Shown here: positions 4,599 through 10,163 of the stretch, piece by piece
Layout: each line of letters begins with the position of its first letter
Numbering within the stretch: position 1 is the first letter of the stretch
The notes under the pieces: model-generated
The model's database searches: none
What the model was told of the DNA's origin: nothing
The model's input: only the letters and a program-made list of their open reading frames with translations
Assembly: GCF_039645965.1 (NCBI RefSeq)
Contig: NZ_CP147917.1
Span: 558,001-622,000, forward strand
Length of the DNA stretch: 64,000 nt
Direction of reading: 5' to 3'
Origin: Sulfurimonas sp. HSL3-2
Lineage (GTDB): Bacteria > Campylobacterota > Campylobacteria > Campylobacterales > Sulfurimonadaceae
Translations under genes and position numbers: made by a program

Positions 4599-4898
4599 TT
4601 GGATACGAGAACAGATAACGAATTAGAGAGCGATCTCTCCGTAATGTTGCCAAAGCGCTATAAAGTGCTTCTTTTAAACGACGATTATACCTCTATGGAT
4701 TTTGTGATAGATATCTTGATGAACGTCTTTCACAAAAGCTATCAGCAGGCAGAGGTCATCATGCTTGAGATCCACAGGACCGAGCGGGGGCTTTGCGGAG
4801 TCTACAGCTATGAAATAGCCGAGACAAAAGTTATGCAGGTTCACAAACTGGCGCGTGAACAAGGATTTCCGCTAAAAGCTACAATGGAGGAAGAGTGA
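4599..4898 (+). CDS. clpS: ATP-dependent Clp protease adaptor ClpS
   Basis: ClpS recognises N-degron residues (Leu, Phe, Tyr, Trp) and delivers substrates to ClpAP. The 99-residue protein contains the conserved core LLNDDYTSMDFVI (about 26-38) and the HRTERGLCGVY segment, matching the hydrophobic pocket and ClpA-binding surfaces of the family. The start is TTG at 4599, chosen because AGGA at 4588 sits 7 bp upstream and the protein then has normal length. Its stop overlaps the clpA start by 4 bp (ATGA), so translation is coupled. Confidence 0.95.
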   Translation: MDTRTDNELESDLSVMLPKRYKVLLLNDDYTSMDFVIDILMNVFHKSYQQAEVIMLEIHRTERGLCGVYSYEIAETKVMQVHKLAREQGFPLKATMEEE

Positions 4899-7832: not shown

Positions 7833-8279
7833 ATGAAAAAGATTTTAGTAAGCGCGGTAGCAGTGTTAGCATTAGCAACGGCAGGTGTTGCATCGGTAAA
7901 TGACCAAACTGGTTGTGGTCTTGGTGCGGTAATCATTAAAGACGATTCATCAGCTGTATTGCTTGCTCTTCAAGCAACAACAAACGGTACTTCAGCGAAC
8001 CAGACTTTTGGTATCACTTCAGGGACTTTAGGTTGTAAAAAGACTAAACTTGTTATGAATGAAAGAGCAGAAGAGTTCGTTGCATCTAACATGGACCAAC
8101 TTGCTAGCGAAATCGCTCAAGGTCACGGTGAGTCTGTTGACACATTGGCAGAACTTTTAAATGTTCAAGATAAAGAAGGTTTTGCTTCATCTTTACAAGC
8201 AAACTACAACAATATCTATGCATCTCAAAATGCAAAAATGTCAGACGTACTTGACAACATCTCAACTACTGCTATCTAA
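7833..8279 (+). CDS. Secreted DUF3015-family protein
   Basis: A 148-residue protein with a clear signal peptide (MKKILVSAVAVLALATAGVAS, cleavage near residue 20). The mature start contains GCGLGAVI and later GTLGCKK, the two-cysteine pattern of DUF3015, so a disulfide in the periplasm is likely. The remainder is helical and Asn/Gln/Ala-rich. The function of the family is not known to me. A strong Shine-Dalgarno (AAGGAAG) lies 7 bp before the ATG, and a good intrinsic terminator follows the stop, so it is probably a separately transcribed, well-expressed gene. Confidence 0.8.
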   Translation: MKKILVSAVAVLALATAGVASVNDQTGCGLGAVIIKDDSSAVLLALQATTNGTSANQTFGITSGTLGCKKTKLVMNERAEEFVASNMDQLASEIAQGHGESVDTLAELLNVQDKEGFASSLQANYNNIYASQNAKMSDVLDNISTTAI

Positions 8280-8291
8280 TGCAGTCTTTTG

Positions 8292-8322
8292 CTAAGCGAA
8301 TTTTTCGCTTAGTACCCTTTTT
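8292..8322 (+). terminator. Intrinsic terminator after the DUF3015 gene
   Basis: A perfect 9-bp inverted repeat, CTAAGCGAA (8292-8300) and TTCGCTTAG (8304-8312), with a 3-base loop, is followed by CCCTTTTT. It lies 13 bp after the DUF3015 stop and just upstream of the next gene's Shine-Dalgarno sequence. Confidence 0.85.
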
Positions 8323-8345
8323 ATAATCTTCATTTAGGATTTTCC

Positions 8346-10163
8346 ATCAAATATTTTCGTACTCTTTTTTTCTTATCCATACTTATATCATTTTTAAATG
8401 CCGATGTTGAACAATATCATAAAAAAGCGGATGAACTTCATCTTGCAGATGAGAGGTACTGGCATCTTCTTCTTCACTTTACAGGTCATGAAAGCGAGAT
8501 AGACGATGAGAAGTTCTTTTTCGCAAAAGACGGTAAACAGAGTCCAAAAGATGAACTTCATGCGACTATAGACGCTTTTTACAATGAAACGACGTTTGAT
8601 GATAACTCCAGTGCATGTAGATTTCCGGCTCGCTTGGAGTGGCTAAAAGAGAAACTCGATCTAAAAGACCTGCCGGATGTTACATGTAAGAGATACGACG
8701 AGATAGTAAGAAGACTTGATCCCAAATCTGTTACTTTGGTCTTTCCTGCAGCGCATATCAACTCGCCTGCATCGATGTTCGGTCATACATTTTTACGTAT
8801 AAACTCATCATATAACTCAAAACTTCTTTCTTATGCGATCAATTACGCGGCTGCAGCGGACAGCACAAAAGAAAACGGAGTGGTATTTGCCATTAAAGGG
8901 CTTATCGGCGGCTATTACGGCAAGTATTCTATGCTTCCTTATTATGATAAATTAAAAGAGTACCGCGACACGGAAGCCCGCGATATCTGGGAATATGATC
9001 TTGATCTGACTCCCCAAGAGACGATGAGAATGGTCAGGCATATCTGGGAACTTAACGACACCTCTTCATTTTACTACTTTTTTACGGAGAACTGCTCATA
9101 CAATATGCTTTGGCTTATAGAAGCAGCGCGCCCGTCCTTACATCTAAGAGAGAACTTCACGTATCAGGTGATCCCGCTTGAGACGGTACATGTAGTCGAA
9201 GACCAGCATATAGTAAAGTCAAAAAACTACAGACCTTCAAAAAGAAGCGTACTTTTAGCATATGAGGACACATTAAACCAATACTCAAAAGACAAAGTCT
9301 TAGAGCTTACAGATGAAAAGATAGAGATCAAAGATATCGTTGACGACAGCAATCTGACATTACAGGAAAAACAGTATATTTTAGAGGCATCGACAAATAT
9401 CTTAGAATATAAACTGATACAGAACAAGATAAAAAAAGATGACTATCTGAAGCGTTTTCATCAGATCTCAAGTGCCCGTGCATCTTTGGGAAAAGGAAAA
9501 CCGCTGGAAGTGATCCCTCCGCATAACCCCGATCAGGGAAACAGAGCTTTGCGAACATCTGCAGCACATGGCTGGAGAGATGGCAGACCTATAGAATATC
9601 TCGGGATCCGTCCTGCTTATCATGACCTAAGAGACAGCAGTGTAGGGTTTTTAAGAGGTACGCAGATAGAGTTCTTGGATTTTGAACTAAACTACTATGA
9701 CAGTAAAGTCGAGTTAGAAAAGGGGACGATACTTTCTATAGAATCGATCGCGCAAAGAAGCACCTTCTTTAAAAACTTTTCATGGCGCATGAAAACGGGC
9801 TTTGACAGAGACTTTATGAACAGCGATCCTAACTATATCTTGACAGTCGGTGCGGGTTTGAGCTTTGGAAATAAATATGGGTATGCGTACCTTTTAGCCG
9901 ATCCGTTTACATATATTAAGAGTGACATGTCCGGAGGTATCGGCACATCATTAGGTCTTGTCTTGGATAGTTCATATGATTTCAATACAAATCTGGAAGT
10001 GACTCATAGGTGGTACTTTGACCAAAAGAACCAATGGCTTGCGACGTTTAGCGAGAATTACAGAATCTCAAAAGCATTTTCTCTGCAGCTGTCTTACCAG
10101 TATAAAGACAGAGACAGCAGTTCTGAAGATACCTATAAGGCTTCGCTAAATTACTTCTTTTAA
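8346..10163 (+). CDS. Lnb_N (DUF4105) envelope protein with barrel-like C-terminus, apparent ATC start
   Basis: The reading frame is open from 8313 to 10163, and family-like protein sequence begins well before the first canonical start (TTG 8634). Read from ATC 8346, 6 bp after AGGA, it gives a textbook signal peptide (KYFRTLFFLSILISFLNA, cleaved before Asp) and a 605-residue protein. The N-terminal half is Lnb_N/DUF4105: CRFPAR, then HINSPASMFGHTFLRI and TENCSYNMLW, the latter two supplying the candidate His and Cys of an NlpC/P60-like active site. The C-terminal half has alternating beta-type sequence ending in Phe, suggesting an outer-membrane barrel. Relatives include the Bacteroides lipoprotein N-acyltransferase Lnb; activity here is unproven. 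No ATG, GTG or TTG lies in frame between 8313 and 8634. Confidence 0.75.
   Translation: MKYFRTLFFLSILISFLNADVEQYHKKADELHLADERYWHLLLHFTGHESEIDDEKFFFAKDGKQSPKDELHATIDAFYNETTFDDNSSACRFPARLEWLKEKLDLKDLPDVTCKRYDEIVRRLDPKSVTLVFPAAHINSPASMFGHTFLRINSSYNSKLLSYAINYAAAADSTKENGVVFAIKGLIGGYYGKYSMLPYYDKLKEYRDTEARDIWEYDLDLTPQETMRMVRHIWELNDTSSFYYFFTENCSYNMLWLIEAARPSLHLRENFTYQVIPLETVHVVEDQHIVKSKNYRPSKRSVLLAYEDTLNQYSKDKVLELTDEKIEIKDIVDDSNLTLQEKQYILEASTNILEYKLIQNKIKKDDYLKRFHQISSARASLGKGKPLEVIPPHNPDQGNRALRTSAAHGWRDGRPIEYLGIRPAYHDLRDSSVGFLRGTQIEFLDFELNYYDSKVELEKGTILSIESIAQRSTFFKNFSWRMKTGFDRDFMNSDPNYILTVGAGLSFGNKYGYAYLLADPFTYIKSDMSGGIGTSLGLVLDSSYDFNTNLEVTHRWYFDQKNQWLATFSENYRISKAFSLQLSYQYKDRDSSSEDTYKASLNYFF

Follow-up and report, generated by a model that had tools for sequence, protein, structure and literature searches.

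Nearly certain use of ATC or ATT as the start codon of an Lnb_N gene in Sulfurimonas sp. HSL3-2 and dozens of related bacteria

Comparison across genomes makes it nearly certain that the Lnb_N gene has ATC or ATT as its start in Sulfurimonas sp. HSL3-2 and in dozens of related bacteria. In the window (the whole stretch of DNA analyzed, 64,000 nucleotides), this non-NTG start is real and is explained by no sequencing error or one-off mutation, and the comparative data strongly support ATC 8346 as the codon at which translation is initiated. We give a probability of roughly 0.83 to the joint reading that ATC 8346 is where translation of the gene starts and that a selected, weak codon, discriminated against by IF3, acts with an intergenic hairpin to keep the product scarce. 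To our knowledge, gene finders treat starts other than ATG, GTG, and TTG as near-absent, and few bacterial genes with conserved ones have been documented.

The start region and the predicted product

The features of the gene are as follows, in window coordinates.

8346..10163, + strand: Lnb_N gene, entire coding sequence (605 residues; stop codon 10161-10163)
8310..8312, + strand: TAG, in-frame stop shutting the frame 5' of the start (read directly)
8336..8339, + strand: Shine-Dalgarno (SD) core AGGA, 6 nt before ATC (read directly)
8346..8348, + strand: ATC, probable start codon (ATC, ATT, or ATA at the equivalent place in 82/86 loci of six genera)
8346..8402, + strand: predicted signal peptide, residues 1-19, IKYFRTLFFLSILISFLNA (sequence inspection; conserved hydrophobic stretch; helix 2-17 in the model)
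8439..8654, + strand: DUF7843 (PF25225), residues 32-103 (Pfam E 2.7e-25; in 31/31 family members scanned)
8634..8636, + strand: TTG, first in-frame NTG (codon 97), rejected as start (weak SD, -1.7 kcal/mol)
8697..9203, + strand: Lnb_N (PF13387), residues 118-286 (Pfam E 6e-56; His147 at 8784-8786, Cys250 at 9093-9095)
9519..10157, + strand: DUF7840 (PF25222), residues 392-604, predicted 12-stranded outer-membrane beta-barrel (Pfam E 7.3e-47)

The first-pass annotation had placed a signal peptide at ATC 8346, 6 nt past AGGA, and had reported that no ATG, GTG, or TTG lies in frame between the stop at 8310 and TTG 8634; direct reading of the sequence confirmed both statements and all of their coordinates. 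AGGA 8336-8339 forms the best anti-SD duplex of the region (-4.0 kcal/mol). By inspection, the predicted signal peptide reads IKYFRTLFFLSILISFLNA from ATC 8346, with DVEQY following, and no NTG can serve as the start of the conserved protein. The gene also stands out from the rest of the genome. Among 372 genes in 464 kb, no other came close to it in coding signal ahead of the first NTG, and it still ranked first among 676 genes when the baseline was extended to 864 kb, or ~39% of the genome, scored in stretches.

TTG 8634 is the sole start that an ordinary gene finder could use, and translation might in principle begin there, the upstream frame being a relic. We consider this extremely unlikely. 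DUF7843 begins 65 codons before TTG 8634, and an internal start would therefore cut a conserved domain and destroy the export of a product predicted to be periplasmic or in the outer membrane; the earlier claim that such a start costs the signal peptide and family sequence thus held. Moreover, residues 20-97 are highly conserved among relatives, the stretch before TTG 8634 scores as coding, and the SD of this TTG is weak.

The Lnb_N match scored 189 bits (Pfam cut-off 22.2), and DUF7843, Lnb_N, and DUF7840 all lie far over their Pfam cut-offs and were found in 31/31 relatives scanned. His147 and Cys250 are invariant in the alignment of 31 relatives. A conserved His and Cys are expected in permuted NlpC/P60 enzymes, and by motif these two residues are putatively catalytic. 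The AlphaFold model built from 31 family sequences (pLDDT 88, pTM 0.84) comprises a helix at the N terminus, a domain mixing helices and strands, and a barrel of 12 strands, with Phe605 as the last residue, and its best PDB matches in Foldseek were outer-membrane barrels, e.g., KdgM, NanC, and FapF. The product thus bears the marks of an outer-membrane barrel protein: in the model, a C-terminal antiparallel barrel that ends in an aromatic residue, and, by inspection of the sequence, a signal peptide. One DUF4105 member is Lnb, which in Bacteroides acts as the lipoprotein N-acyltransferase (PMC12994826) and shares with the present protein the Lnb_N domain, the invariant His and Cys, and a predicted periplasmic location. 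In contrast to Lnb, the protein here carries DUF7843 on one side of the Lnb_N domain and an outer-membrane barrel of 12 strands on the other, and N-acylation is putative. Sequence and model together make the product likely to be an outer-membrane-anchored, acyltransferase-like protein.

Start codons across relatives

A homology search (E 1e-60) located the gene in 134 of 228 genomes of the bacterial family, and 80 further loci were added for the start comparison. All four species of the same genus (g1) found with the gene have ATC at the start. In the three g1 carriers other than HSL3-2 (78, 72, and 72% identity), ATC AAA occupies the equivalent spot a few nucleotides past AGGA, and NTG is absent upstream of the core of the signal peptide. 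We then located starts by the SD only, choosing, among the in-frame codons, the one whose upstream sequence paired best with the anti-SD at a normal distance and assuming no start codon. Over 124 loci, this returned ATT 44 times, ATC 25 times, ATA 5 times, TTG 14 times, and ATG once. SD-like matches internal to hairpins misled this test in genera such as g5, g6, g11, and g15, and it was replaced by a rule combining SD and spacing. Under the latter, the non-canonical codon proved conserved at the SD-defined place: of 86 loci in six genera, 82 had ATH, made up of 45 ATT, 31 ATC, and 6 ATA. By genus, the starts were as follows.

g1 (this genus): 4 ATC
g2 (sister genus): 40 ATT, 24 ATC, 3 ATA, 1 GTG, 3 unclear
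g4: 3 ATA
g5: 2 ATT
g7: 3 ATT, 1 ATC
g9: 2 ATC

ATG did not occur at the SD-defined place in any of the 86 loci, with two ambiguous cases one codon earlier; these are the g2 loci L049 and L077, where ATG precedes ATT by one codon and lies just 4 nt past AAGG. G was found at position -9 in 98% of the 82 ATH loci. The SD is usually just AGGA or AAGG (~ -4 kcal/mol), short of an extended SD. Elsewhere, g15 (25/27) and g11 use TTG or GTG. Distant homologues (L130-L132; 43-44% identity, one being a second copy in its genome) also show ATC. Among homologues outside the bacterial family, three close ones from family f4 seem to have ATT, ATA, and ATC or TTG, respectively; others start at TTG or ATG. 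In one further genome (L087, G238), the Lnb_N gene retains its SD-ATC, but out of frame with the remainder, through either an indel or an assembly error.

These data bear on the three options that the first-pass annotation had offered, that is, initiation at ATC, a mutated ATG, or a sequencing error. A sequencing error or a recent point mutation of ATG confined to this genome is vanishingly improbable: homologues in other genomes carry ATC or ATT at the equivalent place, and the same class of codon recurs there in dozens of separately assembled genomes, some of them complete. An isolated mutational event likewise fails against a non-NTG start in 82/86 loci of six genera, which leaves initiation at ATC as the surviving option. 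Nor did the alignment of starts, in which an internal start without a signal peptide was sought, reveal one; the ATH loci keep a signal-peptide-like stretch. What had not been foreseen was the conservation of the codon across genera, the alternation of ATT, ATC, and ATA, and the existence of other genes that behave alike.

To follow the codon through evolution, we used a FastTree tree of 124 proteins from which the first 30 codons were left out. ATH and NTG interchanged 4 times on this tree, whereas ATT, ATC, and ATA interchanged 18 times, and the third base never turned to G. The third base of the start in the 82 loci (T45 C31 A6, or ATT 55%, ATC 38%, and ATA 7%) differs from Ile codon usage elsewhere in the same genes (ATA 41%, ATT 38%, ATC 21%) at p ~4e-9, a value that serves as a guide only since the rows are related. 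At conserved fourfold sites in the 82 ATH sequences, G appeared in all 36 columns (in 2-33 rows), and none of the 36 columns had 6 or fewer A; as this control ran on rows already called ATH, the avoidance of G is carried by the absence of ATG from the 86 loci, apart from the 2 ambiguous cases. Given the codon usage, the fourfold columns, and the 0 ATG in 86 loci, the start behaves neither as an ordinary Ile codon nor as a start drifting back to ATG.

Poor starts may be tolerated by weakly expressed genes, and the non-NTG start could be a neutral or slightly harmful accident of that sort, free of selection; with ATH and NTG exchanging just 4 times, a few ancestral events could have been inherited. 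Such an account is unlikely in our view. It has to contend with a third base that changes 18 times and never becomes G, as every conserved fourfold site in these genes does, with the retention of the SD, and with two further genes with conserved ATH starts (see below), which argue for function. A broad survey found in addition that switches off GUG and UUG go mostly to AUG (202/241 and 43/79, respectively), with AUG changing to AUU once in 61,358 (PMC5622118). Over dozens of species the third base has moved between T, C, and A while avoiding G, and this is comparative evidence pointing to selection on weak initiation, the reading that we prefer.

The upstream neighbor and the proposed mechanism

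Two features lie immediately upstream of the Lnb_N gene.

7833..8279, + strand: DUF3015 gene (PF11220), ATG start (Pfam E 6.7e-37; SD AAGGA before the ATG)
8290..8314, + strand: intergenic hairpin, 11-bp stem, terminator-like (structure kept, sequence not conserved across the family)

The DUF3015 gene is directly upstream of the Lnb_N gene in 123/126 loci of the bacterial family, which suggests a functional link between two uncharacterized envelope proteins. It starts with ATG in 118/123 loci, and the genomes therefore behave normally in this respect. The intergenic gap has a median of ~62 nt; in it, the hairpin follows the DUF3015 stop by ~7 nt and precedes the Lnb_N start by 29 nt. Stems of at least 8 bp were present in 89/106 intergenic regions, although these share no common sequence. 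The first-pass annotation had the gene directly follow a terminator. A terminator-like hairpin does stand at 8290-8314, but a general role as terminator across the family is unsupported: a T-rich tail (at least 5 T in 8) was seen in just 18/106 loci, and the hairpin was rejected as a conserved terminator. It is plausible that it is a processing or stabilizing element favoring the DUF3015 mRNA, the weak codon being a second brake. The sigma-70 scan, whose promoters were at chance level, did not report TATAAT 8322-8327 as a promoter of the Lnb_N gene's own. This motif is still a possible promoter because a -35 box may be missing from promoters in this lineage. A 15-codon ORF at 8279-8326, whose ATG overlaps the DUF3015 stop (TAATG), spans the hairpin and ends before the ATC; it is probably due to chance.

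Ribosomes could also enter the frame by a frameshift or by stop readthrough from upstream translation, with no initiation at ATC. The frame is shut merely by a stop 12 codons upstream of the ATC, and in much of g2 the stop, whose TAG contributes to the SD, lies ~three codons before ATH, as this explanation would allow. It is nonetheless very unlikely. An ORF in another frame that opens with an ATG no more than 150 nt away and runs across the start was present in just 11/82 loci, in no consistent frame; no common shift site or stop context was seen; the hairpin parts the two genes; and nearly all loci have an SD at normal spacing. In family f7 (L264, L265, L267, L273, and L276), the Lnb_N start seems to be a TTG a few nucleotides past an upstream stop. 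That stop looks like the end of DUF3015 (..GCAGGTTAA), with the SD inside this 3' end, and the arrangement suggests that the Lnb_N gene of f7 is translationally coupled to the upstream gene.

We propose that initiation at ATC 8346 takes place on an mRNA that the Lnb_N gene would share with the co-oriented, ATG-started DUF3015 gene. The initiator tRNA (anticodon CAU) would pair with the first two bases of AUC and be mismatched at the third, a mismatch that IF3 would tolerate poorly, making initiation inefficient. Selection would keep this weak codon, and together with the hairpin it would hold the Lnb_N/barrel protein at a small fraction of the DUF3015 protein. The reason for scarcity may be that harm or waste is likely if an outer-membrane acyltransferase-like protein is overmade. 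Low, IF3-sensitive output is proposed by analogy, on the strength of AUU/AUA reporters in Staphylococcus aureus and of the sigR precedent in Streptomyces. The SD is a counterpoint, as it is a 4-base core (AGGA or AAGG) here, versus extended SDs in sigR and the S. aureus cases.

An altered initiator tRNA was rejected for this genome, as its anticodon arm GGGCTCATAACCC is intact and present in two copies, and so was an unusual IF3, since the IF3 of this genome is present and ordinary. The infC gene (L165:1222-1737, - strand) has a TTG start, conserved in the clade, after TGAGGT, and not ATT as in Escherichia coli.

Known weak starts and further ATH genes

Conserved weak starts under IF3 discrimination are a known, rare kind. 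infC, which encodes IF3, starts with ATT in E. coli and ATC in Streptomyces and is autoregulated by IF3 (PMC5472188). Like the Lnb_N gene, it combines an ATT or ATC conserved across relatives with a Shine-Dalgarno sequence and a third-base mismatch with the initiator tRNA; unlike it, infC closes an autoregulatory loop, whereas the product here is an envelope protein. E. coli pcnB has an AUU start (Binns and Masters 2002, as cited in PMC13009471) and, as far as the citing text goes, is a case of a weak start limiting a product other than IF3, namely, poly(A) polymerase; the weak start here varies among ATT, ATC, and ATA across several genera. In Streptomyces, the GTC start of sigR is repressed by IF3, and its canonical replacement deregulates the system (PMC5472188). 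sigR shares with the present gene a non-canonical start conserved in the genus and a canonically started neighbor, with the ratio of products set thereby. It differs in its very extended SD (AGGAGGTG) and its overlapping downstream gene, versus a 4-base SD and a hairpin-separated upstream neighbor here, and IF3 repression was tested experimentally for sigR, whereas here it would hold by analogy. Finally, S. aureus cvfC1 (AUU) and ccpN (AUA), the latter with an AUA start in Bacillus subtilis as well, gave ~10% (up to 30%) of the AUG level in reporters (PMC13009471). Their AUU/AUA starts are likewise conserved, and there they lower yield, but they have extended SDs and belong to Bacillota, in contrast to the short SDs of this Sulfurimonas-like lineage. 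Our literature search on the DUF3015/Lnb_N gene pair and on Sulfurimonas start codons found nothing relevant; as far as we found, the gene, the lineage, and the breadth of the ATH start are undescribed.

Partial genome scans gave two more genes with ATH starts.

L174:9241-11013 (G000:C1:369241), + strand: recQ (TIGR01389), without an NTG start; ATT in the window's genome
L260:3326-4696 (G120), - strand: NhaC-like antiporter (PF03553), ATA GAA; from the scan of G120 stretches

In the baseline scan for coding signal ahead of the first NTG, recQ ranked second. HSL3-2 has ATT at its start and the seven other species of the genus have ATC (ATH in 8/8), mostly past AGG-type SDs, whereas other genera mostly have ATG, GTG, or TTG. 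The NhaC-like antiporter has ATA in 25/28 relatives in the sister genus g2 and ATG in three. By sequence comparison, ATH starts are kept in three or more gene families of this bacterial family, each favoring its own codon. It is possible, though we hold this tentatively, that such unrelated genes (the Lnb_N barrel gene, recQ, the NhaC-like antiporter, and probably others) form an IF3-responsive group whose output tracks the balance of IF3 to ribosomes. The two added cases suggest that ATH starts are commoner than annotation shows, and the N termini of ATH-start genes are likely misannotated. The Lnb_N gene offers a test system for IF3 control beyond infC. In G120, a multidrug-transporter-like gene (L256, - strand, near 2283) and another gene (L244, - strand, near 4861) are further candidates, each with apparent coding sequence and an SD plus ATH ahead of the first NTG.
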